Assembly (NCBI GenBank): GCA_008330645.1
Contig: VLTN01000087.1
Location: 32,677-96,676, forward strand
Length of the DNA: 64,000 nt
Direction: 5' to 3'
Source: Cafeteria roenbergensis
Lineage: Eukaryota; Sar; Bigyra; Bicosoecida; Cafeteriaceae
The position numbers were made by a program, and so were the translations under genes. Shown here one piece after another: positions 4,302-49,873 of the stretch (within the stretch, counting starts at the first letter, position 1; each line of letters opens with the position of its first letter). The notes beneath the pieces are model-generated. The model worked only from the letters and a program-made list of their open reading frames with translations. It did not search any database and was not told the DNA's origin.

Positions 4302-7300
4302 ATGGCGGCTGCTGGCGCAGCTGCAACTGCAGCGCTGGCGAGCGCCGAGGAAGCAGGAGCCACGCTGGCGGCGAGCGGGTGGGACGCCGGCCACTCCGTG
4401 CACGTGGGCTCGTACGAGCAGTGAGCCAGCGGAAAGGCTGCCAATCTGGCCTTGCGTTCGCATGTTGTCTGACTTGTGGGCTCTGGGGCGGACCAGTGAC
4501 CGCGTTGAGCCGACCCTCGGCCTAGCTTGCCGCAGCAGCCACCGACCTGTCCGCGTGCGATTCCCGGTCCCCGCAGCGCGAGCTTTGGCACCAGCGATAC
4601 GCTGCATAGTCTGTTTGAGGCGTCGTGCGCGCGGAGCCCGACGGCAGAGGCAGTGCTTGAAGTCGACTCCGGGGAGTCTGTGACCTTTGCGGAACTGAAC
4701 GGTGAGGCGACAACAGAGAGCCGCGCGCCGCGCCCCATCCACCCGCCGGACACTGCAAACGGGGACCGCCGCCACGGTGGCGTGTGCTGTTGACTGCATT
4801 CGCTGCTCGCAGGCTTGGCGGACAACGTCGCTCGCTGGCTCCTGGCCCGGGAAGGTGGCGGTGGAGGGACCCGAGGCGTGGTGGCGATTTTTGCTGCCAG
4901 GTCCATCCAGACCCTTGCGTGCATCCTGGGAATCCTCAAGGCCGGCTTTGCGTACCTACCTGTTGACCCAGGCCAACCTGCTGAGCGGGCCCAGTGTCTG
5001 ATCGAGGACAGCGGGGCGATGACGGTTCTGTTCGCCTCAAGCCTTTCTGCGGCAGCAGCTGCGGTCAAGCGCGAATGCCAGCGATCGGAAACGGCATGGG
5101 TCGCCCAAGACGAAGCCTGCAACAGCGACGCGCGCCACCACTTGTCTTGCGCGGCGGCTGGGAGTGCGGCAGGATCCGCTGCCGCACTGGGCTCAGCCAG
5201 ACTGGCAACGCCATCAACGCAGTGGGCAGTCGGAGAAGGACCTGACCAAAAAGCGGGCGCGGCTACGCCGTCGTCGCTGGCGTACATCATCTACACCAGC
5301 GGCTCCACGGGCAAGCCCAAGGGCGTGGGGGTGGAGCACCGGTCGGCGGTGAACTACATGCGCGCGTCGGCGACGGTGTACGAGCCGCGTTCGTCCGACC
5401 GCTGGCTGCAGTTCGCGTCGTTGTCGTTCGACGCGAGCGTCGAGGAGGTGTTCGTGCCGCTGTGCAACGGCGCGACGGTGGTGCTCCGATCGTCGGAGAT
5501 GACCCTGTCGGCGTCGGACTTCATGTCGGCCTGCGAGTCTCGCGGGGTGACGGTGATGTCGTGCGCGACGGCGTTCTGGCACCAGCTGGTGGACAGCGTG
5601 ACTCGCGGCGAGACGCGGGTTCCCGGAAGCGTGCGCCTGGTCGTGATCGGGGGCGAGGCCTGCAACCCGTCTCGTCTGGTTGCGTGGGAGCGCGCGTGCC
5701 CGGGGGTACCCGTGGTGAACGCGTACGGCCCGACGGAGGCGACGGTGAGCACCCACCTGTGGCGCAGCGACGGCTCGTTGTCGGAGGGGTGCGCGTCGGT
5801 TCCCATCGGGCGCGGCCTTCCGGGCGTGCGGTCGTACGTGCTGGACCGGGAGCGTCGCACGCCGGTGCCGGTGGGGGTGGTGGGGGAGCTGTACGTCGGC
5901 GGGCTTTGCCTGGCGCGAGGCTACCTGGGCCGCGACGACCTGACGGCAGACCGTTTCGTGCCAGACCCGTTCGCGGACGACGTGTCGCGCTCGGTGGACG
6001 GCCGCATGTACGCGACGGGCGATCTGGTGCGCATGGGCGAGGACGGCACGCTGACGTACGTGGGCCGCGCGGACGACCAGGTGAAGATCCGCGGCTTCCG
6101 CATCGAACTGGGCGAGATCGAGGAGGTGGCGCGGCGCCACGACTCCGTGCAGGACTGCGTGGTGCGCGTGGTGAAGGTGGGCGGCACCCAGCATCTGGTG
6201 GGGTACGTGGTGTGGGCGTCGGAGTCGCAGTCGACGGCGTCGCTGGCGTCACTGCGGGAGGGCATGTCGCGGTCGCTGCCATCGTACATGGTTCCGTCCG
6301 CACTGCTGGAGCTCGCGAGCATTCCCACGACGGCGCTGGGGAAGATCGACTACCGCGCTCTGCCGGTGCCGTCCGAGGAGGACTTCGTGTCGTCGGAGTC
6401 GTACGTGGCGCCGAGCACAGAGGTGGAGCAGGCGCTTGCGGATGTTTGGTCGGAGGTGCTCCAGCGGGACAAGGTGGGCGTGATGGACAGCTTCTTCGAG
6501 CTGGGCGGGGACAGCATCCTGAGTCTGCAGGTGGTGTCGCTTTGCGGCCAGCGAGGGCTGAACGTGCGGCCGAAGCTCCTGTTCGAGCACCCGACGATCC
6601 GCGCTCTGGCGCAGCAAGTGGACGGTTGCGAATCGCTGCAGCGCCGTACCATTGTCGCGGGTTCAGGATTCGCAGCATCTTGCCTTCGTCTTTCTGCCAT
6701 GCTTGGAGACGTTTCTGAGACTGCACAGGTGCTGCCTGTGTCGTCACTCCAAGCAGCCATGCTCTTGGCTCACGCATCGGCTTGTGAGGCATCTCGTCCA
6801 GATCCGTACTTGACCCAAGACTCGGTCGTGCTGCCAGCAAGATGGAGCGCCTCGTCTCTGCGATTGGCGATGACTCGGCTCGTTGAGCGGCACTCGTTGC
6901 TGCGGGCGTCTTTCCGCCAGACATCAAGCGGCGAGTTTGTTGCGATCGTGAACCCACCTGAGGCTGCGTCTTCGGTCGTCGAGCATGCTCTGGTCGAGTC
7001 TCTTTGCGCCGACATTGAAGAGGTGGCGGGCGCGCGGGCTGCCAAGCCGCTCGATCTTTGGCATGGGCAGAGCTTTTTCATCGACATGCTTCCGCCTCGC
7101 CCAGACGGGTCGAGGGAAGCGGCTGTCACAATTCATCACGTAGTGGTAGATGGGTGGTCTGCGAACCTCTTCTACGAAGAGCTTGCGAGCCTGTGCGATT
7201 TGCCTTCGGCCCCCCTCCCTCCTGCAGGGCGCATCGAAGGCTGGCTGGAGTGGACCATGTCCCAGTCAGAGGTTGCTGGAAAGGCAGCGTGGGAGCGGGT

Positions 7301-10300
7301 CTCCGGTGGCCTGCTGGCGGAGCCCTTCAAGCTGGACATCGACCGCGGAGACACGCTGGAGACCATGGCGGGCCCAAGGTCAAAGTGGGTGACGGTTCCT
7401 GGAGCTGGCCGCATTTTCAGCGCCCGCCACCTTGCTGCCAGTCGCACCTCGCTTTCGACCTTCAGCTTTGGCGCGTGGTTGCTAGCTCTTGAGGCCATGA
7501 CTTCATCCGACTCCGGCGTTCGGCGAGCCGTCAGCGGGATGACTGTGGCCATTCGTCCCAGCGAGGTCGCCGATTGCGATCGCCTGCTCGGCTTGCTAAT
7601 CAACACTGTTCCCGTGCCTTTCTTGTGGAATGACTCCGAGAGCGCGGGAGACGCTCTTCGACGGCTGCAAAGTGTGTGCCTTGAGGTAGCCGAGCAGGGC
7701 CACTGGGCGTGGTCGAAGATCAGGCAGTGGTGTTCGTCCCCCGATGCGGAAGCAGCTGCAGTCGAGCTGCGCAACCTTTTCGTCTTCGAAAACTACCCAT
7801 CGGCAAGCGAGGAGGCAGTCCAGCGTAAGGAGCTCGTGGGTGTCACGGATGTGCCACTGACCCTGACTTGCATTCCCGGAGACGACGAGACACGCATTCA
7901 GTTGGCATGGCAGCCTGCTTTGGTTTCGGACGCTGACGCCCACCGCCTCCTTCGATTGGTGGAGGCCAACCTGGTGGAGCTAAGAAATGCCGCCGTCGCC
8001 AACGCACTTGATTCCACAGCCCTGCCTGCAATTCCAGAGCATGACCTCTCAATCCAAGCAGATGAGTTGCCGTCTCCTGCCAAGGAGAGCAGCTCCACGC
8101 TGTGGAGCCTTGTCAAGGCGGCTGTTGCGGCCAACCCGGACGCCATCGCGGTCACGGACGGGAGCGACAGCATCACCTACGCGGAGCTCGACCGCCGCTC
8201 GGCTCTGCTAGCCGCCGCGCTGCAGCGCCGAGGCGCCGGCGCTGGAGGAGTGGTGGGCGTGCTGCTGGGCCGGAGCGTGGACGCCATCGTGTCGCTGGTG
8301 TCGGTGCTGCGCTGCGGCGCGGCGTACCTGCCGCTGGACCCGGGCCAGCCAGTGAGCCGGCTGGCGTACATGGTGGAGGACAGCGGCGTGGGGGTGGTGC
8401 TTGTGAACGGCGCATCGTCCGGCCGGGCGGCGGAGTCGCTTGCGGCGATGGAGGGCGAGGGCGCGGCCGCTCGCGTGCGGGTGCTGGACGTGACGGCGCT
8501 GGGCGGAGCGGTCGGCGAGGGCGCATCGGCAGGCGGCGCATCGGCCGCTGGCGGCGGCGCCGCGGTGGGTGAAGACGCTGGCGCGGCTACGCCGTCGTCG
8601 CTGGCGTACATCATCTACACCAGCGGCTCCACGGGCAAGCCCAAGGGCGTGGGGGTGGAGCACCGGTCGGCGGTGAACTACATGCGCGCGTCGGCGACGG
8701 TGTACGAGCCGCGTTCGTCCGACCGCTGGCTGCAGTTCGCGTCGTTGTCGTTCGACGCGAGCGTCGAGGAGGTGTTCGTGCCGCTGTGCAACGGCGCGAC
8801 GGTGGTGCTCCGATCGTCGGAGATGACCCTGTCGGCGTCGGACTTCATGTCGGCCTGCGAGTCTCGCGGGGTGACGGTGATGTCGTGCGCGACGGCGTTC
8901 TGGCACCAGCTGGTGGACAGCGTGACTCGCGGCGAGACGCGGGTTCCCGGAAGCGTGCGCCTGGTCGTGATCGGGGGCGAGGCCTGCAACCCGTCTCGTC
9001 TGGTTGCGTGGAGCGCGCGTGCCCGGGGGTACCCGTGGTGAACGCGTACGGCCCGACGGAGGCGACGGTGAGCACCCACCTGTGGCGCAGCGACGGCTCG
9101 TTGTCGGAGGGGTGCGCGTCGGTTCCCATCGGGCGCGGCCTTCCGGGCGTGCGGTCGTACGTGCTGGACCGGGAGCGTCGCACGCCGGTGCCGGTGGGGG
9201 TGGTGGGGGAGCTGTACGTCGGCGGGCTTTGCCTGGCGCGAGGCTACCTGGGCCGCGACGACCTGACGGCGGACCGTTTCGTGCCAGACCCGTTCGCGGA
9301 CGACGTGTCGCGCTCGGTGGACGGCCGCATGTACGCGACGGGCGATCTGGTGCGCATGGGCGAGGACGGCACGCTGACGTACGTGGGCCGCGCGGACGAC
9401 CAGGTGAAGATCCGCGGCTTCCGCATCGAACTGGGCGAGATCGAGGAGGTGGCGCGGCGCCACGACTCCGTGCAGGACTGCGTGGTGCGCGTGGTGAAGG
9501 TGGGCGGCACCCAGCATCTGGTGGGGTACGTGGTGTGGGCGTCGGAGTCGCAGTCGACGGCGTCGCTGGCGTCACTGCGGGAGGGCATGTCGCGGTCGCT
9601 GCCATCGTACATGGTTCCGTCCGCACTGCTGGAGCTCGCGAGCATTCCCACGACGGCGCTGGGAAGATCGACTACCGCGCTCTGCCGGTGCCGTCCGAGG
9701 AGGACTTCGTGTCGTCGGAGTCGTACGTGGCGCCGAGCACAGAGGTGGAGCAGGCGCTTGCGGATGTTTGGTCGGAGGTGCTCCAGCGGGACAAGGTGGG
9801 CGTGATGGACAGCTTCTTCGAGCTGGGCGGGGACAGCATCCTGAGTCTGCAGGTGGTGTCGCTTTGCGGCCAGCGAGGGCTGAACGTGCGGCCGAAGCTC
9901 CTGTTCGAGCACCCGACGATCCGCGCTCTGGCGCAGCACGTGGCGCTTGCATCGGCAGGCGGGGCGAGTGTCGTGGCTGCGGAGCAGGGGACGGTGAGCG
10001 GCGAGGTGCCGCTGACACCGATCCAGCGCTGGTTCTTCAGTCAGCCGCTTGTGAACCGGGACCACTTCAACATGTCTTACAGCCTGTGGCTCGATGACTG
10101 CGTGACGCACGACCAGCTTGGGCGCAGCCTGGAGGCGCTGGCACTGTTCCACGACGCGATGGGGCTGCGCTTCGACGCTTCCGAAGAAGCTGCATCGATT
10201 CGCGTGGTTCAGCGCTGTGTTGGGGCGGAGCAGCGCCCGGGCAGCATTTCACTGTCTGTGGCCAGCGTGGATGGCCTGGGGGAGGACGAGGCCGTCGCGA

Positions 10301-13300
10301 TCGACCGCATCGCAACGTCAGCGAGCGCGTCTCTTGACATTTCGCGGGGCCCGATTGCGAGCGCTGTGGTCGTGAGCGGTGGCGCTTCACCCGCTTCTCG
10401 CGCAGGCCGGTCTCGTCGGGTTGTACTGGCGGTCCACCACTTGGTGGTGGATGGTGTGTCTTGGCGTGTACTGCTGCGAGACCTGGACTCGCTGCTTCAG
10501 GGCCTGCAGAGGTCAGGCCCAACACTCCCATCTGCCGCAGAGCTTGCAGCCAGTTTGGGCCGCAAGTCGTCATCGTTCCGCGAGTGGTCGGGGCGTCTCA
10601 GGGGCCATGCAGAGGGCTCTGCGAGCCTTGCTGCGGAGGCGAAATTTTGGTCGGCGCAGCTGGCGGCGCCACTGCCGACTGTGAGATGCGACAGCGACGG
10701 AGCGAACACCGAGGCGTCTGGCTCAGAGGTGCGTCTGGCCTTCGACGAGGTCACAACCGATGCGTTGCTCAAGGGCTGCCATGCTGCTTTGGGAACTCGC
10801 ATCGAGGACCTGCTTCTTGCCGCTCTTGCGGCATCCCTTGGCCGCGTTCTGTCGGTGTCAGACACTCTGGTGGAGATGGAGGCTCATGGTCGCGAGGACC
10901 TGTTCGATGATATCGACCTGTCGCGCACTGTGGGCTGGTTCACGGCATCCTACCCCGTGCGGGTGCATGGGGGCGACGGCCGCGACATGGTCGCGGTGGT
11001 GAAGAGCGCGAAGCAAGCACTTCGGTCGGTTCCCAACCACGGGATCGGCTATGGCCTCCTGGCCGGGACAGGCGCCGTTCCGTCAGACGAGGGTATCGAA
11101 GTGTCGTTCAACTACCTGGGGGTGTTCGACTCTTCATCGTCAGCCACTGCAAGCGGCGCAGGCGCTGCGGGTGCAGGACGCCGCCCGCTGGTGGGCATGG
11201 AGCGAGCAAACCCGGGGCATGTGATCGACGGGCGCAACGAGCGGGCCAGGCTGCTCGAGGTGAACGCCGAGGTTGTCGACGGCCTTCTGTCGGTAGAGCT
11301 CGGCTACAGCCGGTTCCGGCACCACCCAGACACCATGAAGGAGGTGGGACGTGCCTTTGAGCTCAGCTTGCGCAACTACCTGGGCATGTGCTCGTCTGGC
11401 GCGGCGATCGGGCGCACGCCCAGCGACTTCCCGCTGTGCGATGTGTCGCAGCCCGAGCTCGACGGCATCCTGGCGCGCCACGACCTTGCCCGCGTGGAGG
11501 ACATGTACGCCCTGACGCCAATGCAGCAGGGAATGCTGTTCCACTCGGCGTACGCCGAGAGCCCGAGCGAGGATGTGTACTTTATCCAGGACTGGTTCCG
11601 CGTGTCGGGCTGCGTGGACTTGGGCGCGTTCCAGGCGGCGTGGAGCCACGTTGTGGAGCGCCACGCCATCCTGCGCACTGTGTTCGAGTGGGAGGGCCTG
11701 GCAGCGCCGGTGCAGGTGGTGCTCAAGGACGCGGGTCTCGAGTGCGCGCGAGAGCGACTTGCGAGGGCTTGGTGAGGCCGAGCAGGCAGCTGCGCTGCGT
11801 CGTGCGTCGGTCGAGGACCGCGAGCGCGGTTTCGACCTCCGCAGCCGGCCGCCGCTGCGCATGCACGGGTTCCGTGTTTCGGACGGCGAGGCACGTGTGC
11901 TGCTGAGCGTGCACCACGTGCTCGTGGACGGCTGGAGCAACTCCATCATCGCGGGCGAGGTCCACGATGTCTACGCGGCGCTGGTGTCCGGCGGGAGCCC
12001 TCCGAGGCGGGCACCGGTGCGTTGCCCGTACTCTGGCTACGTGCAGTGGCTCCGTGGTCAGTCGCTGTCCGATGCAGAGGACTTCTGGCGGGGTCAGCTG
12101 CAGGGTTTGGAGTCCCCGACCCCGCTTCCGTTCCGCTCGCTGTCGGAGGGTAGAGAGGGCGCTGCTGTGCCCATGGGAGGGTACCACACGCTTGAGGCAA
12201 CTGTGCGCATTCCAGGCGCCTCAGACCTGCGCCGTTCCGGGCTGACACTGAACACGCTCGTTTGCTCGTCATGGTCGTTGCTGCTGTGGCAGTACACTGG
12301 CGAGCCAGACGTGCTGTTCGGCGTCACCGTGGCGGGCCGCCCGGCGTCGCTGAAGCACGTGGACGAGGCGGTTGGCCTGTTCATCAACACCGTGGCCTTG
12401 CGGGTCCCCATCCCGAGCATGCCGCCGGCAGTGACCAGCGGCAGCTCCACGCGCGGTTCAGGGTGCGGGGCGTGGCTAGCGGAGGTGCAGAGCCGGCTTA
12501 GCTCAGTGCGCGAGTTCGAGCACACGCCGCTGAGTCGCTTGCAGGGGTGGTCTGACATGGGCTCGGAAGGATCCTTGTTCCATACGCTGGTGGTCTTTGA
12601 GAACTATCCTGCCGAGGATCATCCGAGCACGTCCTTTTCCATTGCGTATGCCGACAGCGACGAGAAGGAGCGAACGAACTTCCCCGTGGTGCTGACGGTG
12701 GTGCCACACCCTTCTGGCGACTCGCTCGAGATGGAGCTCGGTTTCTACGACGGCAGGGTGAGCGCCGCTCAGGCTGGTCGCCTGCTGGACCATCTCTCAG
12801 GACTGATCCAGGGGCTTGCTGGCGCGGCGCCGAGCTCAAGTCGGGAGTCTCTTGCAGATGTGGTCGTTTCAGCGTCGCGTGGCTGCGCTGGCGGGCAGTC
12901 AGTGCATTGGGCCGGAGCGCCAAGCAGCCGCGACAGTGCCGACGAAACGCTGTGGATCCTTGTCAAGGCGGCTGTTGCGGCCAACCCGGACGCCATCGCG
13001 GTCACGGACGGGAGCGACAGCATCACCTACGCGGAGCTCGACCGCCGCTCGGCTCTGCTGGCCGCCGCGCTGCAGCGCCGAGGCGCCGGCGCTGGAGGAG
13101 TGGTGGGCGTGCTGCTGGGCCGGAGCGTGGACGCCATCGTGTCGCTGGTGTCGGTGCTGCGCTGCGGCGCGGCGTACCTGCCGCTGGACCCGGGCCAGCC
13201 AGTGAGCCGGCTGGCGTACATGGTGGAGGACAGCGGCGTGGGGGTGGTGCTTGTGAACGGTGCATCGTCCGGCCGGGCGGCGGAGTCGCTTGCGGCGATG

Positions 13301-16300
13301 GAGGGCGAGGGCGCGGCCGCTCGCGTGCGGGTGCTGGACGTGACGGCGCTGGGCGGAGCGGTCGGCGAGGGCGCATCGGCAGGCGGCGCATCGGCCGCTG
13401 GCGGCGGCGCCGCGGTGGGTGAAGACGCTGGCGCGGCTACGCCGTCGTCGCTGGCGTACATCATCTACACCAGCGGCTCCACGGGCAAGCCCAAGGGCGT
13501 GGGGGTGGAGCACCGGTCGGCGGTGAACTACATGCGCGCGTCGGCGACGGTGTACGAGCCGCGTTCGTCCGACCGCTGGCTGCAGTTCGCGTCGTTGTCG
13601 TTCGACGCGAGCGTCGAGGAGGTGTTCGTGCCGCTGTGCAACGGCGCGACGGTGGTGCTCCGATCGTCGGAGATGACCCTGTCGGCGTCGGACTTCATGT
13701 CGGCCTGCGAGTCTCGCGGGGTGACGGTGATGTCGTGCGCGACGGCGTTCTGGCACCAGCTGGTGGACAGCGTGACTCGCGGCGAGACGCGGGTTCCCGG
13801 AAGCGTGCGCCTGGTCGTGATCGGGGGCGAGGCTTGCAACCCGTCTCGTCTGGTTGCGTGGGAGCGCGCGTGCCCGGGGGGTACCCGTGGTGAACGCGTA
13901 CGGCCCGACGGAGGCGACGGTGAGCACCCACCTGTGGCGCAGCGACGGCTCGTTGTCGGAGGGGTGCGCGTCGGTTCCCATCGGGCGCGGCCTTCCGGGC
14001 GTGCGGTCGTACGTGCTGGACCGGGAGCGTCGCACGCCGGTGCCGGTGGGGGTGGTGGGGAGCTGTACGTCGGCGGGCTTTGCCTGGCGCGAGGCTACCT
14101 GGGCCGCGACGACCTGACGGCAGACCGTTTCGTGCCAGACCCGTTCGCGGACGACGTGTCGCGCTCGGTGGACGGCCGCATGTACGCGACGGGCGATCTG
14201 GTGCGCATGGGCGAGGACGGCACGCTGACGTACGTGGGCCGCGCGGACGACCAGGTGAAGATCCGCGGCTTCCGCATCGAGCTGGGCGAGATCGAGGAGG
14301 TGGCGCGGCGCCACGACTCCGTGCAGGACTGCGTGGTGCGCGTGGTGAAGGTGGGCGGCACCCAGCATCTGGTGGGGTACGTGATGTGGGCGTCGGAGTC
14401 GCAGTCGACGGCGTCGCTGGCGTCACTGCGGGAGGGCATGTCGCGGTCGCTGCCATCGTACATGGTTCCGTCCGCACTGCTGGAGCTCGCGAGCATTCCC
14501 ACGACGGCGCTGGGGAAGATCGATTACCGCGCTCTGCCGGTGCCGTCCGAGGAGGACTTCGTGTCGTCGGAGTCGTACGTGGCGCCGAGCACAGAGGTGG
14601 AGCAGGCGCTTGCGGATGTTTGGTCGGAGGTGCTCCAGCGGGACAAGGTGGGCGTGATGGACAGCTTCTTCGAGCTGGGCGGGGACAGCATCCTGAGTCT
14701 GCAGGTGGTGTCGCTTTGCGGCCAGCGAGGGCTGAACGTGCGGCCGAAGCTCCTGTTCGAGCACCCGACGATCCGCGCTCTGGCGCAGCACGTGGCGCTT
14801 GCATCGGCAGGCGGGGCGAGTGTCGTGGCTGCGGAGCAGGGGACGGTGAGCGGCGAGGTGCCGCTGACACCGATCCAGCGCTGGTTCTTCAGTCAGCCGC
14901 TTGTGAACCGGGACCACTTCAACATGTCTTACAGCCTGTGGCTCGATGACTGCGTGACGCACGACCAGCTTGGGCGCAGCCTGGAGGCGCTGGCACTGTT
15001 CCACGACGCGATGGGGCTGCGCTTCGACGCTTCCGAAGAAGCTGCATCGATTCGCGTGGTTCAGCGCTGTGTTGGGGCGGAGCAGCGCCCGGGCAGCATT
15101 TCACTGTCTGTGGCCAGCGTGGATGGCCTGGGGGAGGACGAGGCCGTCGCGATCGACCGCATCGCAACGTCAGCGAGCGCGTCTCTTGACATTTCGCGGG
15201 GCCCGATTGCGAGCGCTGTGGTCGTGAGCGGTGGCGCTTCACCCGCTTCTCGCGCAGGCCGGTCTCGTCGGGTTGTACTGGCGGTCCACCACTTGGTGGT
15301 GGATGGTGTGTCTTGGCGTGTACTGCTGCGAGACCTGGACTCGCTGCTTCAGGGCCTGCAAAGGTCAGGCCCAACACTCCCATCTGCCACAGAGCTTGCA
15401 GCCAGTTTGGGCCGCAAGTCGTCATCGTTCCGCGAGTGGTCGGGGCGTCTCAGGGGCCATGCAGAGGGCTCTGCGAGCCTTGCTGCGGAGGCGAAATTTT
15501 GGTCGGCGCAGCTGGCGGCGCCACTGCCGACTGTGAGATGCGACAGCGACGGAGCGAACACCGAGGCGTCTGGCTCAGAGGTGCGTCTGGCCTTCGACGA
15601 GGTCACAACCGATGCGTTGCTCAAGGGCTGCCATGCTGCTTTGGGAACTCGCATCGAGGACCTGCTTCTTGCCGCTCTTGCGGCATCCCTTGGCCGCGTT
15701 CTGTCGGTGTCAGACACTCTGGTGGAGATGGAGGCTCATGGTCGCGAGGACCTGTTCGATGATATCGACCTGTCGCGCACTGTGGGCTGGTTCACGGCAT
15801 CCTACCCCGTGCGGGTGCATGGGGGCGACGGCCGCGACATGGTCGCGGTGGTGAAGAGCGCGAAGCAAGCACTTCGGTCGGTTCCCAACCACGGGATCGG
15901 CTATGGCCTCCTGGCCGGGACAGGCGCCGTTCCGTCAGACGAGGGTATCGAAGTGTCGTTCAACTACCTGGGGGTGTTCGACTCTTCATCGTCAGCCACT
16001 GCAAGCGGCGCAGGCGCTGCGGGTGCAGGACGCCGCCCTCTGGTGGGCATGGAGCGAGCAAACCCGGGGCATGTGATCGACGGGCGCAACGAGCGGGCCA
16101 GGCTGCTCGAGGTGAACGCCGAGGTTGTCGACGGCCTGCTGTCGGTAGAGCTCGGCTACAGCCGGTTCCGGCACCACCCAGACACCATGAAGGAGGTGGG
16201 ACGTGCCTTTGAGCTCAGCTTGCGCAACTACCTGGGCATGTGCTCGTCTGGCGCGGCGATCGGGCGCACGCCCAGCGACTTCCCGCTGTGCGATGTGTCG

Positions 16301-19300
16301 CAGCCCGAGCTCGACGGCATCCTGGCGCGCCACGACCTTGCCCGCGTGGAGGACATGTACGCCCTGACGCCAATGCAGCAGGGAATGCTGTTCCACTCGG
16401 CGTACGCCGAGAGCCCGAGCGAGGATGTGTACTTTATCCAGGACTGGTTCCGCGTGTCGGGCTGCGTGGACTTGGGCGCGTTCCAGGCGGCGTGGAGCCA
16501 CGTTGTGGAGCGCCACGCCATCCTGCGCACTGTGTTCGAGTGGGAGGGCCTGGCAGCGCCGGTGCAGGTGGTGCTCAAGGACGCGGGTCTCGAGTGGCGC
16601 GAGAGCGACTTACGAGGGCTTGGTGAGGCCGAGCAGGCAGCTGCGCTGCGTCGTGCGTCGGTCGAGGACCGCGAGCGCGGTTTCGACCTCCGCAGCCGGC
16701 CGCCGCTGCGCATGCACGGGTTCCGTGTTTCGGACGGCGAGGCACGTGTGCTGCTGAGCGTGCACCACGTGCTCGTGGACGGCTGGAGCAACTCCATCAT
16801 CGCGGGCGAGGTCCACGATGTCTACGCGGCGCTGGTGTCCGGCGGGAGCCCTCCGAGGCGGGCACCGGTGCGTTGCCCGTACTCTGGCTACGTGCAGTGG
16901 CTCCGTGGTCAGTCGCTGTCCGATGCAGAGGACTTCTGGCGGGGTCAGCTGCAGGGTTTGGAGTCCCCGACCCCGCTTCCGTTCCGCTCGCTGTCGGAGG
17001 GTAGAGAGGGCGCTGCTGCGCCCATGGGAGGGTACCACACGCTTGAGGCAACTGTGCGCATTCCAGGCGCCTCAGACCTGCGCCGTTCCGGGCTGACACT
17101 GAACACGCTCGTTTGCTCGTCATGGTCGTTGCTGCTGTGGCAGTACACTGGCGAGCCAGACGTACTGTTCGGCGTCACCGTGGCGGGCCGCCCGGCGTCG
17201 CTGAAGCACGTGGACGAGGCGGTTGGCCTGTTCATCAACACCGTGGCCTTGCGGGTCCCCATCCCGAGCATGCCGCCGGCAGTGACCAGCGGCAGCTCCA
17301 CGCGCGGTTCAGGGTGCGGGGCGTGGCTAGCGGAGGTGCAGAGCCGGCTTAGCTCAGTGCGCGAGTTCGAGCACACGCCGCTGAGTCGCTTGCAGGGGTG
17401 GTCTGACATGGGCTCGGAAGGATCCTTGTTCCATACGCTGGTGGTCTTTGAAAACTTCCCCGAAGCGCACGATTCAAGTGAAGACTTCTGCATTGATGAA
17501 ATCGACAGCGACGAGAAGGAGCGAACGAACTTCCCCGTGGTGCTGACGGTGGTGCCACACCCTTCTGGCGACTCGCTCGAGATGGAGCTCGGTTTCTACG
17601 ACGGCAGGGTGAGCGCCGCTCAGGCTGGTCGCCTGCTGGACCATCTCTCAGGACTGATCCAGGGGCTTGCTGGCGCGGCGCCGAGCTCAAGTCGGGAGTC
17701 TCTTGCAGATGTGGTCGTTTCAGCGTCGCGTGGCTGCGCTGGCGGGCAGTCAGTGCATTGGGCCGGAGCGCCAAGCAGCCGCGACAGTGCCGACGAAACG
17801 CTGTGGATCCTTGTCAAGGCGGCTGTTGCGGCCAACCCGGACGCCATCGCGGTCACGGACGGGAGCGACAGCATCACCTACGCGGAGCTCGACCGCCGCT
17901 CGGCTCTGCTGGCCGCCGCGCTGCAGCGCCGAGGCGCCGGCGCTGGAGGAGTGGTGGGCGTGCTGCTGGGCCGGAGCGTGGACGCCATCGTGTCGCTGGT
18001 GTCGGTGCTGCGCTGCGGCGCGGCGTACCTGCCGCTGGACCCGGGCCAGCCAGTGAGCCGGCTGGCGTACATGGTGGAGGACAGCGGCGTGGGGGTGGTG
18101 CTTGTGAACGGCGCATCGTCCGGCCGGGCGGCGGAGTCGCTTGCGGCGATGGAGGGCGAGGGCGCGGCCGCTCGCGTGCGGGTGCTGGACGTGACGGCGC
18201 TGGGCGGAGCGGTCGGCGAGGGCGCATCGGCAGGCGGCGCATCGGCCGCTGGCGGCGGCGCCGCGGTGGGTGAAGACGCTGGCGCGGCTACGCCGTCGTC
18301 GCTGGCGTACATCATCTACACCAGCGGCTCCACGGGCAAGCCCAAGGGCGTGGGGGTGGAGCACCGGTCGGCGGTGAACTACATGCGCGCGTCGGCGACG
18401 GTGTACGAGCCGCGTTCGTCCGACCGCTGGCTGCAGTTCGCGTCGTTGTCGTTCGACGCGAGCGTCGAGGAGGTGTTCGTGCCGCTGTGCAACGGCGCGA
18501 CGGTGGTGCTCCGATCGTCGGAGATGACCCTGTCGGCGTCGGACTTCATGTCGGCCTGCGAGTCTCGCGGGGTGACGGTGATGTCGTGCGCGACGGCGTT
18601 CTGGCACCAGCTGGTGGACAGCGTGACTCGCGGCGAGACGCGGGTTCCCGGAAGCGTGCGCCTGGTCGTGATCGGGGGCGAGGCTTGCAACCCGTCTCGT
18701 CTGGTTGCGTGGGAGCGCGCGTGCCGGGGGTACCCGTGGTGAACGCGTACGGCCCGACGGAGGCGACGGTGAGCACCCACCTGTGGCGCAGCGACGGCTC
18801 GTTGTCGGAGGGGTGCGCGTCGGTTCCCATCGGGCGCGGCCTTCCGGGCGTGCGGTCGTACGTGCTGGACCGGGAGCGTCGCACGCCGGTGCCGGTGGGG
18901 GTGGTGGGGGAGCTGTACGTCGGCGGGCTTTGCCTGGCGCGAGGCTACCTGGGCCGCGACGACCTGACGGCGGACCGTTTCGTGCCAGACCCGTTCGCGG
19001 ACGACGTGTCGCGCTCGGTGGACGGCCGCATGTACGCGACGGGCGATCTGGTGCGCATGGGCGAGGACGGCACGCTGACGTACGTGGGCCGCGCGGACGA
19101 CCAGGTGAAGATCCGCGGCTTCCGCATCGAGCTGGGCGAGATCGAGGAGGTGGCGCGGCGCCACGACTCCGTGCAGGACTGCGTGGTGCGCGTGGTGAAG
19201 GTGGGCGGCGCCCAGCATCTGGTGGGGTACGTGGTTTTGAATTCGCAAGCGGCGGCAGAGGGATCTCGTCGCACCAAAGCAACCTCTCTGGTGTTTGAGT

Positions 19301-22300
19301 CTGTGGCCATGTCCGAGGTTCGACTCTCTCTCAAGTCTGCGTTGCCATCGTACATGGTTCCGTCCGCACTGCTGGAGCTCGCGAGCATTCCCACGACGGC
19401 GCTGGGGAAGATCGACTACCGCGCTCTGCCGGTGCCGTCCGAGGAGGACTTCGTGTCGTCGGAGTCGTACGTGGCGCCGAGCACAGAGGTGGAGCAGGCG
19501 CTTGCGGATGTTTGGTCGGAGGTGCTCCAGCGGGACAAGGTGGGCGTGATGGACAGCTTCTTCGAGCTGGGCGGGGACAGCATCCTGAGTCTGCAGGTGG
19601 TGTCGCTTTGCGGCCAGCGAGGGCTGAACGTGCGGCCGAAGCTCCTGTTCGAGCACCCGACGATCCGCGCTCTGGCGCAGCACGTGGCGCTTGCATCGGC
19701 AGGCGGGGCGAGTGTCGTGGCTGCGGAGCAGGGGACGGTGAGCGGCGAGGTGCCGCTGACACCGATCCAGCGCTGGTTCTTCAGTCAGCCGCTTGTGAAC
19801 CGGGACCACTTCAACATGATGTACCTTCTTGAGTCCAAGCGTCACCTCTCTTCGGCAGAAGTTCGTGCTGCTGCCGTCGCACTTGTGGACCACCACGACG
19901 CTCTGCGCCATGTCTTCAAGACCTCGCCTGACTCGCCCTTCGGGCTCATTCAAGTCGCAGGAACTCTCGACGCACCAGAGGCGCTGTTGTTCGCCGAGGC
20001 CACTGTGTCTGTCGCTCCCTCGGCCCCTGTGGAGACCGTTGACGCCGAGTTTCGCCGAGTCTGCGGACCTATTCAATCGTCCTTGAGCTTGGAGGCCGGC
20101 CCGCTGTTTGCTACGTGTCTCGTTCATGCCGGTCCAGTGGACATGGTCCTCATGGTCGCCCATCATCTTGTGGTTGATGAAGTGTCTTGGCGAGTGCTCA
20201 TCAGTGACATGGAAACACTGCTGACCACCTCGGCAACGGGCCGGACGGCTCGTTTGCCGCCCAAGTCAACTTCATTCAAGGCATGGTCCAGGAAGTTGGC
20301 TGACTTCAGCTCCTCCCCTGAAGTGCTGAAGCAGCTGCCATTCTGGAAACAGCAGTGCTTGCCGCTTCCTGCTCCGTTTCCTGTGGACACTCCAGGGGGC
20401 ACGAACACGGACTCCTCGACTTTTTTGCACTCAGTGGGCCTCACTGAGGCAGAGACCGCCTTGCTGGTGACTTCCTCTGCGCGTGCCTTTGGGACCAGGA
20501 CGGAGGACTTGCTGCTTTCGGCGTTGCTCCTGTCGCTGTGGCGGTGGGCGGACTTGAGCGGGGTGCTGGTGGAAATGGAGGCTCACGGGAGAGAGGACGT
20601 GCTTGAGGGCGTCGACGTATCCCGCACCACTGGATGGTTCACGGCGGCATATCCGATTCGGCTCGATCTGTCGTCCGCTCGCATTCGAGGGACTGACATC
20701 GCTGGCGTGATCAAGTACGTGAAAGAGTCTCTGAGGCGGGTGCCGCAGCACGGGCTTGGCTTTGGGCTGCTGCGTTACGGCCCGGGTACCAGCGATGGCG
20801 ACAGAGCCGCGCTGTCTGCGGAGCCGTCCATCACGTTCAACTTCCTGGGGAGCTACGATTCGACCTTCCAGGACGATGGAATGTTTGTCGAGCGGTCGCT
20901 CGACTGCGGCGACGTGATTCACCAGCACAACCAGAGGCCTCGGGCGGTTGAGGTCAACGCAGCCATCTCGGAGCGCCAGCTGACGGCAGAGTTTGCCTTC
21001 AGCTCGACTTTGCACTCTGAGGCGTCGGCGGGAAGTCTTTGCGACCACTTTCGTGACGCGCTGCTCGCAATCGTAGAGCTTTGCACGTCGTCTGAGACGG
21101 CGATTGGGCGCACGCCCAGCGACTTCCCGCTGTGCGATGTGTCGCAGCCCGAGCTCGACGGCATCCTGGCGCGCCACGACCTTGCCCGCGTGGAGGACAT
21201 GTACGCCCTGACGCCAATGCAGCAGGGAATGCTGTTCCACTCGGCGTACGCCGAGAGCCCGAGCGAGGATGTGTACTTTATCCAGGACTGGTTCCGCGTG
21301 TCGGGCTGCGTGGACTTGGGCGCGTTCCAGGCGGCGTGGAGCCACGTTGTGGAGCGCCACGCCATCCTGCGCACTGTGTTCGAGTGGGAGGGCCTGGCAG
21401 CGCCGGTGCAGGTGGTGCTCAAGGACGCGGGTCTCGAGTGGCGCGAGAGCGACTTGCGAGGGCTTGGTGAGGCCGAGCAGGCAGCTGCGCTGCGTCGTGC
21501 GTCGGTCGAGGACCGCGAGCGCGGTTTCGACCTCCGCAGCCGGCCGCCGCTGCGCATGCACGGGTTCCGTGTTTCGGACGGCGAGGCGCGTGTGCTGCTG
21601 AGCGTGCACCACGTGCTCGTGGACGGCTGGAGCAACACAGCCATTCACATCGAAGCCGAAAAGCTTCTGACTATCTACTCTGCGGCCTCCAGGCTGACAA
21701 ATTCGTCGGTGCTCACGTTTCCCCAGGGTGCGGTTTCGGCCCCGCCGCCTCCTTTCGCGGGATTCATTCGCTGGCTGCGCTCGCGAAACCCGTCGACGAG
21801 CTTCAAGTTTTGGACAGAGCACCTCAAAATGGTGCCGTCACAGTCGTCTGGGCTCGCCTTCCTCGGAGACGCGACAACCGGTGGACGCCAATCGCACTGG
21901 ACTCCAAGCGTGTCACGTTTTTCGGAAATGAGCTCAGCCGTTCCAGCAGCTGGGCTTCAGAAGGCGGCAAAGCTCATGGGTGTGACGCTCGGCTCGCTGT
22001 GCGCGTCTGCGCTCTCACTGGTCCTGATGGAGTACACCACGGACCGGTGCGTGACAATCGGCTGCACCGTTTCGGGGCGCCCACCGTCGATTGCTGCCGT
22101 GGAAGATATCATCGGTCCATTCATCAACACAATTCCGCTCGCGTTCCAAGAGCCCGATTCAACGACTTCTCTTGTCCGCTGGATGAAGGCTCAGCAGTCA
22201 AGGTTCGCGGACGCGCTTGAGCACTCGCATTTGCCCTTGCCTGAAATTGCCAAGGGAACAGGAATCCGGGACCTTTTCCGCGTGCTCTATGTCTTCGAAA

Positions 22301-25300
22301 ACTTTCCGGAACCGGACGAAGACGAGCCAGCTGCTGGCCGCCCCATCGTCGATTCCATTGACGGTGAAGGAACGGAGCGCACAAACTACCCGGCTGTGTT
22401 CACCTTGCAGACGACCCAGGACGGCGGTGCGGAGTCTGTCGCCGTGTGCTTCAGCTTTTACAGCGACATTCTTCCGGAAGCCACCGCAGCCAGGCTTCTC
22501 GGCCACTACCTCAGGCTTCTCCAGCGACTTCCCAACCTGCTTTCCAAGCGTGGAGCGACGCCCTGGGGCCTCGCGTCGCCCCTGAGCATCGGCGTTGGTC
22601 CATCGCGCGCTGTGGCAAAGCTTCGACAGGCAGAAGCATTCCGCGCCACGCCCAAGAGCGATTTCACAACGGCCACGCTGTGGATCCTTGTCAAGGCGGC
22701 TGTTGCGGCCAACCCGGACGCCATCGCGGTCACGGACGGGAGCGACAGCATCACCTACGCGGAGCTCGACCGCCGCTCGGCTCTGCTGGCCGCCGCGCTG
22801 CAGCGCCGAGGCGCCGGCGCTGGAGGAGTGGTGGGCGTGCTGCTGGGCCGGAGCGTGGACGCCATCGTGTCGCTGGTGTCGGTGCTGCGCTGCGGCGCGG
22901 CGTACCTGCCGCTGGACCCGGGCCAGCCAGTGAGCCGGCTGGCGTACATGGTGGAGGACAGCGGCGTGGGGGTGGTGCTTGTGAACGGTGCATCGTCCGG
23001 CCGGGCGGCGGAGTCGCTTGCGGCGATGGAGGGCGAGGGCGCGGCCGCTCGCGTGCGGGTGCTGGACGTGACGGCGCTGGGCGGAGCGGTCGGCGAGGGC
23101 GCATCGGCAGGCGGCGCATCGGCCGCTGGCGGCGGCGCCGCGGTGGGTGAAGACGCTGGCGCGGCTACGCCGTCGTCGCTGGCGTACATCATCTACACCA
23201 GCGGCTCCACGGGCAAGCCCAAGGGCGTGGGGGTGGAGCACCGGTCGGCGGTGAACTACATGCGCGCGTCGGCGACGGTGTACGAGCCGCGTTCGTCCGA
23301 CCGCTGGCTGCAGTTCGCGTCGTTGTCGTTCGACGCGAGCGTCGAGGAGGTGTTCGTGCCGCTGTGCAACGGCGCGACGGTGGTGCTCCGATCGTCGGAG
23401 ATGACCCTGTCGGCGTCGGACTTCATGTCGGCCTGCGAGTCTCGCGGGGTGACGGTGATGTCGTGCGCGACGGCGTTCTGGCACCAGCTGGTGGACAGCG
23501 TGACTCGCGGCGAGACGCGGGTTCCCGGAAGCGTGCGCCTGGTCGTGATCGGGGGCGAGGCTTGCAACCCGTCTCGTCTGGTTGCGTGGGAGCGCGCGTG
23601 CCCGGGGGTACCCGTGGTGAACGCGTACGGCCCGACGGAGGCGACGGTGAGCACCCACCTGTGGCGCAGCGACGGCTCGTTGTCGGAGGGGTGCGCGTCG
23701 GTTCCCATCGGGCGCGGCCTTCCGGGCGTGCGGTCATACGTGCTGGACCGGGAGCGTCGCACGCCGGTGCCGGTGGGGGTGGTGGGGGAGCTGTACGTCG
23801 GCGGGCTTTGCCTGGCGCGAGGCTACCTGGGCCGCGACGACCTGACGGCGGACCGTTTCGTGCCAGACCCGTTCGCGGACGACGTGTCGCGCTCGGTGGA
23901 CGGCCGCATGTACGCGACGGGCGATCTGGTGCGCATGGGCGAGGACGGCACGCTGACGTACGTGGGCCGCGCGGACGACCAGGTGAAGATCCGCGGCTTC
24001 CGCATCGAGCTGGGCGAGATCGAGGAGGTGGCGCGGCGCCACGACTCCGTGCAGGACTGCGTGGTGCGCGTGATAGCACATGCAAGGTCGGAGCCTGAGC
24101 TTGTGGCCTTTTTGGTGCCAAGTTCAGCAACTTCTGGAGCATCTTTCGACGCCTCCAGGTTCGTCGCGGCGCTGCAGAAGCAGCTTCCGTCGTACATGAT
24201 CCCGTCTCGTGCCTTCGTCTTGGGCGCCCTGCCAGTCACAGCGAACGGCAAAGTGGATCTTAAGGCCCTGTGTGCGTTGCCAGTCGACCATTCGGTTCCG
24301 CTTGGGGCTCAGGGCTGCCATTCGCGCGGTGACCCCAGAGAAGCAAGCTCGGCGAGCGAGCCGGCTGCTGCGGCAGCAGGTGCACGGCCAGTGCCAACTG
24401 TCGGTGAGGTTGCGGAGGCAGAGGCTGTTGACTCGGCTCTGCTTGGCGGGGTGGTGTCAGCTTTCGCATCGGTCCTCGGTGTGACGGAAGCCGAGGTGGA
24501 CCCGCGACGCGACTTCTTCGAAATGGGGGGACACTCACTGCAGTTCTTCGTCCTCGTGTCTCGGGTCAGGGCTGTGTGCGGGGCCCACCTGGATGCGGCA
24601 GCTCTGCTGGCGAGCGCCTCGCCGCTCGCAGCTTGCCGCTTAGCGACTGGTGCAAGCCGCGGGCTCATCGCCCAGGGCACCGGGACTAGCGCGAAACAGC
24701 CTCCAAGCCACCCCGAAGTAGCAAGCTCCATCGCTTCCGCGGCCGCACAGACATCGGGCAAACGGTTGGCGTGGCTCGTCGGGCTGAATGAGCCTGGCCT
24801 CGCCATTGTCGATTCCATGGGACTTGCAGCATCGATGGGGGACGCCGCAGCCGCAGCAAGTGGTGCAGCTCACGCCGAGCACGGGCTTGCGCTGCGCCGG
24901 GCGCCTGTTTTCGTTTTCCACCCAGCAGTGCAAAACCCGCTCGTGTTTCGGCGTCTCGCCTCCGAGCTGCGGGCTCTGGAGGCTCCTCGAGCTGCAAGGA
25001 TCCGCCGCAAGGTCACTCTGCAAGTGGCTGGGCAGTCCCCTGCACGACCTCCGAGTGGCCGTGCCATGCTGCCTGGCCAACGTGGACGACAGCCGAGCTC
25101 TCAAGCCGCCCCACCCGCCGTGTCCACAGCTGCACGCCACGGGATGCACGGCAAGCCAAACTCGTCGCCCGTTCTCGGCCCGGCGTCTCACCGCCGCTCC
25201 CTGGGCGAGGACGACCTATCGCTGGTGGCAGCGGCCTCAGACAGCGCCACTCCGCTTGTGGGCTTCGGCTGCGACGCCATGGCCTTTCCTATTCCGTCCA

Positions 25301-27063
25301 TCGAGTCGCTCTCGGCCGCTTACGTGGAGCTAATCCGCCGAGTCGGCGCAAGCGGCCCCGTTCGCTTGGTTGGGTACTCCTTCGGAGCGCGAGTTGCCGC
25401 GCAGGTTGCCGCCTCTCTGGAGCGCACGGGGGTGCAAGTTGCCTGCCTGGTTGCGATCGACAGCCCAGCGCCCGTGCCAGCCCCCCGCCTGCTGCCGGCT
25501 CCGTTCCCACTGCCACAGCGAACCGGCCAGGAGCGGGGCACGCGGTATCGCAACAGCGACGGTCTGCTTGCCGCCATGCACACTGCCCGCGGCCACTCCG
25601 CGGCAGCAGCCGCTTCAGCTGGCCGCGGCGCGTCCTTTGGTCGGCCGAGGGGTGCAAGCGAAGCCTGGGGTCAAGGTCCAAAACTGGATCCTCGTCGACG
25701 CAGTGACGACTGGGCAGCTGGTCGTGAGGGAACATCTCGTCGCTTTAGTGTTGAGGAGCGACGGACCCTGGATCCTGCCGGTGCGAACGCATCGCTCAGG
25801 GCTTCAACGACGTTGCCCGGAGTCTCAGGGAAGCCCGTGGCTCTTGCGACTGTGGTGTCGTCCGGGGAGTCTCGCACGGGCAGCAGCGGTGACCGGACGC
25901 CCATGCACCACGCGTGTGCGGGGCACCCCTCGGCAAGGCCGGAGGACCATGCAACAGACCCCGCTGCTGAGGGCTCCGGCGAGGAAGCGTCTTTCCACTC
26001 GCCTTTGCTGAGTCCCGACCTTAAGGCCGCCGGTGGCCCTCCGCCCCTTGACGAAGAGCACGCGGACTTGCTGGGCGATCTCGTTGAGCATGCCGCCCTG
26101 CTGTTCGGCGCTGACTTGGAAGACGAGGGCGTCGGGACAGACGAAGCGGTGGCAAGGCTCGGCAGTGCCGAGGCCGTGTGTGCTGCCCTTGCCAATGCGG
26201 TCGAGGTGGCGACTGGGTTGGACGCCGCAACTGCAGCTGACACGGTCGCGTCCCTGTGGGCGGAGCTGCAGTCAAGCGACGCAATGCTGTCGGCCTTCAC
26301 CCTCAAGCGCCGGTTGCGGTGTGACGTGGTTGTGGTGGTGGCTGTGGACGAGGACAGCGAGCAGAATTCCGCCGGCGCCGGTGGCTTGCTCCTTGGATGG
26401 GACAGGGCGACTCTTGGGCGGGTCCTGCTCGCAGCGTGCCCCGGCACTCACTTCAGTGTCGTGGCACAGCACGCTGCAGTGCTTGCGTGGCATCTTCATG
26501 CTGTGATTCACGGGGGCCTCGCCGCAGGAGGTGGAGCATGGCAGAGCGCGGGTATCGGCTTGTGGCGCTTCGCGAAGCACGGCCACGGCTCTCGCGCCTC
26601 CCAGCGCGTCTTGGCAGAAGCTGCCGCGGCTGCGCAGCGCGCTGCCTCCGCTGTGCTGCAAGGCGCAGCCAGCGAGTCCGGCCGCGCAACGGAAGCCTCC
26701 CGATCGCGCGCTGGCTCGCTCGGCGACTTTGTCCTGTCCCCTGCGCCGCCAATGCCTGGATCAGCCGGCTCCGATTCGGCAAGAGCACGGGCAGCGTCAT
26801 TCGCGTCGCAGTTCACTCCGCCGGGCGCTCCTCAGTCTCTGCCAATCCGGCAAACTCCTCCGTCGCCGCTGCTGGCGCCGTCTGCCGGTGCTGCCTCGTC
26901 TGAAATGGCCCGCATCTCGCGCAACCGTGCGGCGTCGTTGGCCACAGGGCAGGGCGCAGGCGAGCTGGCGGCAGCGACCCTTGCGGCGTCTATGGCCATT
27001 GTTGGGCGCGGCTCCGACGTGGCTCGACTCAGGTGGTCCGCAGATGCTGCTGACATGCCATGA
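4302..27063 (+). CDS. Five-module non-ribosomal peptide synthetase
   Basis: Proposed exons are 4302-4420, 4577-4701 and 4813-27063 (introns of 156 and 111 nt); the last exon is 22 kb. Domain order is A-T, C-A-T-E, C-A-T-E, C-A-T-E, C-A-T-TE. The main reading frame is broken by six 1-nt differences from sister modules: near 9011 (G lost), 9663 (G lost), 11751 (one base gained), 13877 (G gained), 14058 (G lost) and 18723 (C lost). Counting these as errors gives an exact multiple of three, 7,498 residues, which supports the exon model. Modules load amino acids as adenylates onto phosphopantetheine arms and condense them; TE releases the product. The start ATG at 4302 is chosen because its exon ends at a good donor in the right phase, and the next exon opens the first A domain at DTLHSLFE. 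No phosphopantetheinyl transferase or tailoring enzyme is in the window. Introns argue against bacterial contamination. Either assembly errors or real decay could explain the breaks. Confidence 0.93.
4577..6634 (+). other. NRPS module 1: loading A1-T1
   Basis: A1 opens with DTLHSLFE and carries the A3 motif [11 protein letters not shown] (5292-5324), NAYGPTE, the ATGD-type motif and [15 protein letters not shown]; the T1 serine codon is 6513-6515 in LGGDSI. There is no condensation or formylation domain before it, so it should load the first residue. From about 5256 to 6614 its DNA is almost identical to the other modules, whereas 4577-5255 (the N-terminal half of A1) is clearly diverged. The two introns of the gene lie only in this diverged part or before it. 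Confidence 0.92.
6640..11440 (+). other. NRPS module 2: C1-A2-T2-E2
   Basis: C1 has the active-site motif HHVVVDG (codons 7134-7154) and is unlike the other C domains of the gene, as expected for one following a T without epimerisation (LCL type). A2 carries [11 protein letters not shown] at 8616-8648; the T2 serine codon is 9835-9837. E2 shows the full epimerase signature: [17 protein letters not shown] (10435-10455), [28 protein letters not shown] and FNYLGVF. The frame is broken near 9011 in A2 and near 9663 between A2 and T2. The module should add a residue and invert it to the D form. Confidence 0.9.
11441..16290 (+). other. NRPS module 3: C2-A3-T3-E3
   Basis: C2 begins with [18 protein letters not shown] and has HHVLVDG at 11912-11932; it follows an E domain, so it should be a DCL condensation domain. 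A3 motif [11 protein letters not shown] is at 13466-13498, the T3 serine codon 14687-14689, and the E3 motif HHLVVDG at 15287-15307. Three frame breaks lie here: near 11751 in C2, then near 13877 (plus 1) and 14058 (minus 1) in A3. The last two cancel, leaving about 60 residues of wrong-frame peptide between them. A3-T3-E3 DNA is nearly identical to module 2. Confidence 0.9.
16291..21120 (+). other. NRPS module 4: C3-A4-T4-E4
   Basis: C3 (HHVLVDG, 16763-16783) is nearly identical to C2 except for a short replaced patch at about 17450-17505. A4 has [11 protein letters not shown] at 18317-18349 and a one-base loss near 18723. A diverged patch (about 19236-19345) then sits between two stretches identical to the other modules. 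The T4 serine codon is 19579-19581. After about 19818, E4 is a different lineage from E2/E3: its active-site motif reads HHLVVDE (20161-20181), and it keeps [28 protein letters not shown] and FNFLGSY. E4 should still be an epimerase, since the His-His-Asp core is kept. Confidence 0.9.
21121..24660 (+). other. NRPS module 5: C4-A5-T5
   Basis: C4 starts as a copy of C2/C3 and has HHVLVDG at 21607-21627, but from about 21635 to its end (about 22660) the sequence is unrelated at DNA level to C2/C3. It is still a C domain, with the VSGRPPSI and GPFINTIPL region and [10 protein letters not shown]5 ([11 protein letters not shown] at 23194-23226) is identical to the other A domains until 24072, where the small C-terminal subdomain becomes unique. 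T5 carries MGGHSLQ with its serine codon at 24535-24537, the GGHS form typical of carriers not paired with E. The frame is intact from about 18724 to the stop. Confidence 0.92.
24760..27063 (+). other. NRPS terminal thioesterase with long insert and tail
   Basis: An alpha/beta-hydrolase thioesterase follows T5: [20 protein letters not shown] near the start, the nucleophile motif GYSFG (25372-25386, Ser codon 25378-25380), AIDSPAP with the probable acid (Asp codon 25459-25461) and GTHFSVV with the catalytic His (26449-26451). About 300 residues of Ser/Pro/Arg-rich sequence are inserted between the Asp and the His, and about 70 more before the nucleophile, so the domain is far longer than the usual 230-280 residues. 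Roughly 200 Ala/Ser-rich residues follow the His. It should release the peptide by hydrolysis or cyclisation; which one cannot be told. Confidence 0.85.
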
Positions 27064-47804: not shown

Positions 47805-48101
47805 TGGGCCACTCGCGTGGGCAACGGCCTGCGACTTCGGCAGTGTCGCAATCGATGCCCCAGCCAGCAGACCTCGCTGGCAGAGCTGCACCAACTTGCC
47901 ACCAAACTGAAATCGCGCCCAGCAGCGCCATCACACGAGCGGAGATGCGAGACAGTTCCTGCGTGTGTGTGGGGCCCCGTTGCAACGCGCATCGCGGAGC
48001 TCGAAGCGTGTTTGCGGGACGCGCTGCACGCTGCCATCGCACATCATCCCCACTCGGGGCCCGAGCTCGAGTCGCTGCGCTCGCCAAGGTGCGCCTCCGG
48101 G

Positions 48102-49238: not shown

Positions 49239-49873
49239 GACCGGCGCCCCCGTGCGCTGCAGGCGCTGCACGAGTGGCGGTGTGCGCCCTGTGAAACAGT
49301 GACGGAAACCACGCGGCTCTGCCGCCCTGCGCTGGCAGGGCCGGCTGTCGCACGGCGGGCAAGTGCCCGCGCGCTGCGGCTTCCTGCTGTGGGCCTGCGC
49401 GCCGCGCCGGCGCACGCGTGCGGGCGCGCCTGGCCGTTGGTGCCCGGCCAGCCGCCCCCCTCGCCGAGCTGCGGGAGCGCGGGCGGCCGCGCGGGCGGGC
49501 TGTGTGCCGCTCTTGCCGGCCGGCCTGTGGTCGGAAGCCCGGCGCCCGTCCGCCGCCCGCGCCGCACAGTGTTTCTCGCCTGCGTGCCTCGCATTCCGCA
49601 CATGGCGGTGCAGGGCGGTCGCTCGTGGCGGACCTGTCCGACTGCCCGGCTCAAGCGCGTCACGGGGCCGCGCCGGCCGTCGCGCGCTCACGCGAAGAGA
49701 CTCACAACCACGCGCACGCACGTACACACGCACAGGCACACGCGCGCCCACTGCCCCGCACCGCCTTCCGGCCGGCGGACAGTCCGAGCGGCGCGTGGCG
49801 CCAGGCCTGCGCGGCCTGCTGCCTGGTCGCCCTGCCCGCCCGCCCGCGCGCCCGCCGGGCTGGCGCCTCGCTA
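49239..49873. promoter_or_regulatory. Y-X spacer within each array unit (635 bp), likely X promoter
   Basis: The same 635-bp spacer occurs in all four units (also 53308-53942, 57346-57980 and 61367-62001) between a Y stop and the X start. Near 49707-49750 it has an alternating purine-pyrimidine tract rich in CA and CG steps, kept in every copy. It also contains a pyrimidine-rich Pro/Ala-type repeat. No TATA box was seen. Open frames through it on both strands are a by-product of high GC. A coding exon for X cannot be excluded. Confidence 0.4.

Follow-up and report, generated by a model that had tools for sequence, protein, structure and literature searches.

The 64,000-nucleotide stretch of Cafeteria roenbergensis DNA analyzed here (the window, to which all positions refer) carries a nonribosomal peptide synthetase (NRPS) gene with five adenylation domains. 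The window is part of contig C87 in a genome that was searched as 36,303,456 bases in 167 contigs (36.3 Mb); the species corresponds to C. burkhardae in PMC8547959. Pfam and motif scans gave the domain order A1-T1-C2-A2-T2-E2-C3-A3-T3-E3-C4-A4-T4-E4-C5-A5-T5-TE, where A stands for adenylation, T for carrier, C for condensation, E for epimerization and TE for thioesterase domain. The gene runs on the forward strand, as do all its features given below, from an exon before position 4702 to a stop codon at 27063. The true gene start and the first exon were not located; the mapped 5' part is an exon piece (4602-4701) that encodes the start of A1 (..SVTFAELN) in a frame open up to a GT-AG intron. 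This intron of 111 nucleotides (4702-4812, GTGAGG...TCGCAG) lies inside A1, contains an in-frame stop and was deduced from the motif on both sides.

The remainder of A1 (4813-6400, Pfam AMP-binding, open frame) consists of an N-terminal part of its own (4815-5249), a core shared with the other A domains and a C-terminal part common to A1-A4. It is followed by T1 (6402-6620, ELGGDSI), assigned by Pfam and motif. Module 2 begins with C2 (6723-7997, HHVVVDGW), a highly divergent domain identified by PF00668 and the tree described below, and continues with A2 (8091-9687), T2 (9724-9942) and E2 (9991-11397), the latter assigned by PF00668, tree and the motifs HHLVVDG and HGREDL. Behind E2, module 3 comprises C3 (11494-12832; PF00668 and motif), A3 (12941-14557), T3 (14576-14794) and E3 (14843-16249), which equals E2 in 468 of 469 residues by alignment and carries the E motifs. 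Module 4 is made up of C4 (16346-17683; tree and motif), A4 (17792-19449), T4 (19468-19686) and E4 (19735-21093), and module 5 of C5 (21190-22542), A5 (22669-24288) and T5 (24418-24651, EMGGHSL; Pfam and motif). E4 and C5 were assigned by alignment, tree and motif, A2-A4 by sequence comparison and motif, A5 by alignment and motif, and T2-T4 by motif. The thioesterase domain with the stop codon occupies 24900-27063, its left edge being approximate since the Pfam Thioesterase profile was matched in part; its motifs GYSFGA (25372) and GTHFSVV (26443) are separated by long low-complexity inserts (24900-26500).

The core motifs of the A domains and the A10 lysine are present when read piecewise in the open frames, not across the breaks described below. 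The phosphopantetheine serine of the carrier domains stands in GGDS in four of the five T domains and in GGHS in the fifth, and all four C domains between the modules (C2-C5) have HHxxxDG. Genome-wide, PF00668 gave eight matches, all in this gene and accounted for by four C and three E domains (C3 being split by a frame break); the gene is thus the sole NRPS with C domains found in the genome. AMP-binding matches were also obtained elsewhere (14 of 31 candidates scored). The genome search yielded two matches to phosphopantetheinyl transferase, one within a very large frame and one in a frame of 275 residues, and no MbtH partner.

The window has a GC content of 0.688. Contig C87 also encodes a proteasome ATPase, an otubain, an RRM protein and a biotin carboxylase, and by these gene neighbors the window is eukaryotic nuclear DNA. 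GC at third codon positions (GC3) is 0.76 in the NRPS gene, compared with 0.67-0.82 in four neighboring frames. A bacterial-type small-subunit rRNA was found on contig C167, adjoining genes that were read by eye as mitochondrial, with in-frame TGA.

Adenylation cores and their pocket code

Comparison of the A domains revealed a 915-nucleotide block common to all five, with copies at 5256-6170, 8580-9493, 13430-14344, 18281-19194 and 23158-24072. Pairwise DNA identity is at least 99% in ungapped stretches. The first-pass annotation of this DNA had stated that the sequence from motif A3 through the pocket is identical or nearly so in A1-A5, and this was borne out, with coordinates now fixed. The block spans core motifs A3 to A8 and includes the whole substrate pocket. 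With copy 1 as the query, all matches had E = 0, copy 1 itself included; no further copies or donor of the core were found elsewhere in the 36.3-Mb genome. Variation across the five copies amounts to four substitution columns, all synonymous, and four length differences of one nucleotide. From TSGSTG to GGEACNPSR, 127 residues are identical in all five A domains, and from NAYGPTE onward the protein is identical among the copies within the block, except that A3 departs from the frame part way. In modules 2 and 3 the likeness extends beyond the pocket, these modules being near-copies across about 4.85 kb.

The comparison of pockets that the annotation had proposed gave the same code, DAESVGAVSK, in all five A domains. 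Nine of its ten positions lie inside the shared block; the tenth, the A10 lysine, lies outside and is kept in every copy. Code extraction was run on 78 loci (77 bacterial loci and L001). The bacterial relatives returned codes matching the standard Thr, Ser, Gly and Asp/Asn patterns, which checks the choice of columns. The nearest printed code found was that of BacB-M1-Lys, DAESIGSV (PMC3207962, Table 2); six of the eight positions are equal, and the remaining two are V/I and A/S exchanges. In the PosA pocket (PMC10522769), Glu 3 binds the amine of the side chain, Thr 7 and Ser 9 contribute, and Ala 2 is associated with lysine as opposed to ornithine. Ala 2, Glu 3 and Ser 9 are shared by the present code. 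An AlphaFold model of A1, for which 21 of the 77 bacterial loci were aligned with it, had a mean pLDDT of 80 and a pTM of 0.71. In a Foldseek search it matched NRPS A domains generally, without pointing to one substrate. Judged from the code, the common substrate is most likely basic, with lysine ranked first and arginine second.

Condensation and epimerization domains and the predicted product

A tree of C and E domains was computed from 63 rows, 58 bacterial domains and five from this gene. After removal of bacterial domains that contained stops or fell below 300 residues, 112 remained, of which 54 untypable by position were then dropped. E3, as a near-copy of E2, and the broken C3 were left out. 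C4 and C5 belong to a clade (96/94) that contains all 11 of the bacterial C domains situated after an E domain, together with one labeled LCL. E2 and E4 are placed in the E clade (100/100), together with 11 bacterial domains labeled E, where the label E or C is the best score to this gene's own E or C domains. The E domains carry the E motifs HHLVVDG or HHLVVDE and HGRED.

T1 bears GGDSI although module 1 lacks an E domain; the carriers T2-T4, which share this form, each stand ahead of one. The GGDSI form is a mark of carriers preceding E domains. Together with the odd C2, it may reflect a lost E1 domain or a T1 copied in with the A1 core.

Five separate A domains, together with C domains and a thioesterase, favor templated assembly over iterative polymerization. 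The annotation had likewise read the gene as a templated line using one amino acid five times, and the five equal pockets agree with this. Its homo-oligomer, however, has to be amended: with E domains in modules 2-4 the product would consist of one amino acid but be of mixed handedness, and both the eukaryotic host and the basic, lysine-like appearance of the pocket had been missed. In the mechanism we propose, each of the five modules would load one and the same basic residue, with lysine as the most likely candidate. The E domains of modules 2, 3 and 4 would flip the residue to the D form, D-accepting C domains behind them would continue the chain, and the terminal thioesterase would free a pentapeptide L-X, D-X, D-X, D-X, L-X. 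The most likely product predicted from these assignments is the basic homo-pentapeptide L-Lys/D-Lys/D-Lys/D-Lys/L-Lys.

Origin of the equal pockets and alternative explanations

Outside the shared blocks, parts of A1, A5, E4 and C5 are only 35-43% identical at the protein level. The N-terminal part of A1 matches A2 in 44 of 115 residues while the core is shared, and the C-terminal part of A5 matches A1 in 29 of 68 while its N-terminal part and core are shared. In C5 the N-terminal half is identical to C4 (149 of 149 residues) and the C-terminal half is not (86 of 249). E4 has 177 of 436 residues (41%) in common with E3, while the carrier domain ahead of it is identical. Within the shared core, three silent sites group copies 1-5 in conflicting ways (position 5658, C C T T T; 5946, A G A G G; 6105, A A G G G), a pattern that short conversion tracts would produce. 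Simple whole-module duplication as the cause of the likeness is ruled out by block edges inside A1, A5 and C5. These edges within domains, the divergent flanks and the conflicting silent sites are best accounted for by copying between modules, that is, gene conversion. Sequence identity, mosaic edges, domain order and silent-site bias are direct observations, whereas gene conversion as the process, the lysine substrate, its collinear use, the stereochemistry and the product are inferred. Bacterial A domains recombine around the P-loop and pocket (PMC9205934). The simplest account of the pattern would be unit duplication of modules 2-4, then partial copying involving modules 1 and 5. Module duplication and later gene conversion would thus have spread one A core to five positions, laid over older, divergent module scaffolds.

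The reading phase changes six times, twice in A2, once in C3, twice in A3 and once in A4, and not in A1 or A5. A2, A3 and A4 each break just behind VIGGEAC; A2 (near its end) and A3 break again downstream. Each break is a length difference of one nucleotide relative to the sister copies, and the four that fall within the common A cores are in or next to single-base runs. The broken frames in A2-A4 indicate poor base-level quality inside the repeat. Among the copies, 17 distinct differing sites were counted by hand in gap-free shared stretches of at least 150 nucleotides, which excludes linkers and short diverged patches such as that near 12600-12652. Thirteen are synonymous and four nonsynonymous, compared with a share of 0.27 for synonymous sites (p = 3e-5). 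This bias argues for a working gene in which selection kept the protein until recently. The BVI genome was assembled in Canu from raw PacBio data, followed by polishing with mapped reads (PMC6972860), which is relevant if the present assembly is that of BVI. For selected virophage elements, Sanger sequencing found substitutions and indels in these assemblies, strain RCC970 being an example, and none of the Sanger assemblies bore out a fragmentation of conserved genes, although some may be genuinely broken (PMC8547959). On the strength of that comparison, the six breaks are most likely assembly errors. The position of the breaks was dropped as proof of such errors (p = 0.09).

Taken together, the sequence features make it probable that the gene encodes a eukaryotic five-module NRPS that uses one basic residue, likely lysine, for an L-D-D-D-L pentapeptide, its pockets having been equalized by intragenic recombination. 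Several points weigh against this. Read literally, the six phase changes break modules 2-4 in this assembly and the gene is dead, and the fact that all six lie in repeated sequence is weak evidence (p = 0.09, with the repeated share summed by hand). C2 is very divergent (branch 2.68) and stands outside the clade that holds 26 of the 36 LCL-labeled C domains; its half of the C tree is the one containing the DCL clade and the other 10, and its long branch blocked typing as LCL or DCL. The first condensation and the L state of residue 1 are uncertain for this reason. The E labels rest on likeness to the gene's own E domains, which makes the E grouping partly circular. Gating by C domains could restrict the residues really joined, and the conflicting silent sites could stem from repeated mutation instead. 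Finally, position 7 of the code is Ala, where PosA has an amine-contacting Thr, and the best match to the pocket stretch in the PDB is ApnA A1 (4d4g), so that arginine is possible.

ApnA A1 takes Arg and Tyr. A less likely alternative is the same enzyme with arginine (or ornithine) as substrate, giving a mixed L/D penta-arginine. ApnA A1, the best solved match, has DVESIGVIA compared with DAESVGAVS here, with four of the nine positions covered by the alignment equal, including Glu and Ser; the codes of the relatives L033 and L040 are DAENIGAITK and DVENVGAIT (last position not covered). The BacB-M1-Lys code is closer, however, and by comparison with PosA an Ala 2 indicates lysine. It appears unlikely that the likeness itself is an assembly artefact, in which modules truly more different or other in number were homogenized or duplicated by long-read consensus and short-read polishing. 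The Canu procedure, if it applies, the location of the breaks in the repeat and the errors found by Sanger sequencing elsewhere in the study's assemblies would fit such an origin. Against it speak the 17 differing sites retained, mostly silent and conflicting in pattern, which argue against a wholesale collapse, the sharp edges to the divergent flanks, and A1 and A5, each of which borders unique sequence yet shares the block. Quite improbable is a recent pseudogene with real breaks, whose modules are alike merely by recent tandem duplication. Six phase changes within 22.3 kb would agree with it, whereas the excess of silent differences, the A, C, E, T and TE core motifs in the open pieces and the edges inside A1, A5 and C5, which whole-module duplication cannot yield, speak against it, although a very recent loss would be compatible with all three. 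Bacterial contamination of the protist assembly is extremely improbable. The NRPS domains are bacterial-like, and the closest relatives found, in a search limited to prokaryote genomes and PDB chains, are bacterial, with 43-48% identity across the aligned stretch. Against contamination stand the proteasome ATPase, otubain, biotin carboxylase and RRM genes on the same contig, the deduced intron within A1, and a GC3 inside the range of the neighbors.

Related systems and genomic surroundings

Templated use of lysine at several modules, predicted here, is found in PaxABC of Xenorhabdus, which makes a cationic peptide (PMC12542672). PaxABC is bacterial and has seven modules on three proteins, a fatty-acyl N terminus and Lys or Arg as residue 2, whereas the present gene is eukaryotic, with five modules in one gene and all pockets equal. 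None of the eight PF00668 matches in the genome precedes C2 as a PAX-type starter C domain, which adds the fatty acid, would, the first exon being incompletely mapped. Epsilon-poly-L-lysine synthetase and PosA likewise use one basic amino acid, as predicted here, and have Glu at code position 3. The iterative cationic homo-poly-amino-acid (CHPA) synthetases reuse a single A domain, in contrast to the five A, four C and three E domains and the thioesterase of this gene. A membrane-spanning terminal domain is also typical of the CHPA type; the present gene has its thioesterase at the end. The pocket of ApnA A1 resembles the present one in Glu 3 and Ser 4 and differs at five of the nine readable code positions. 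WolG1/WolG2 of Streptomyces show an intragenomic swap of P-loop and pocket within an A domain with the flanks kept (PMC9205934); there one pocket was changed, whereas here all five would have been made equal. CalA, the calpinactam synthetase of Mortierella alpina, is also a long eukaryotic NRPS of likely bacterial origin whose peptide has D residues, but it is fungal, with dual E/C domains and six dissimilar pockets, in contrast to the stand-alone E domains and equal pockets found here (PMC9893682). For two sister genes, the amino acid used may be identical in three or more A domains of each (PMC9893682).

No NRPS product from Cafeteria was found among the open-access titles listed, and the terms "nonribosomal" and "peptide synthetase" are absent from the main text of PMC8547959. 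NRPS genes of other stramenopiles may already have been published, given a thraustochytrid title among the open-access papers. The gene predicts a defined peptide from Cafeteria. Discussion of recombination between A domains has mostly centered on the variety it creates; here it appears to equalize pockets, with edges inside domains. The gene also amounts to a natural series of subdomain swaps in which one core sits in several scaffolds, which would be useful for NRPS engineering. More tentatively, intragenic gene conversion might act as a concerted-evolution engine that keeps the pockets equal, the mixed-chirality homo-pentalysine possibly serving this bacteria-eating flagellate as a defense or feeding peptide.

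Immediately behind the NRPS gene, at 28002-36686, lies an open frame of 2894 residues that is rich in Ala, Glu and Arg, coiled-coil-like by eye and without a Pfam match. A frame on the reverse strand (46179-47930) matches Hsp33, a family of redox chaperones more familiar from bacteria. An Rfam scan of the window gave no match. The end of the window (48500-64000) is occupied by four near-identical tandem units of about 4.02-4.07 kb each, with a GC content of 0.72-0.78 and no Pfam match in the six frames scanned. The unit of about 4 kb matches three times at the start of contig C83, which suggests a shared array or a contig join.

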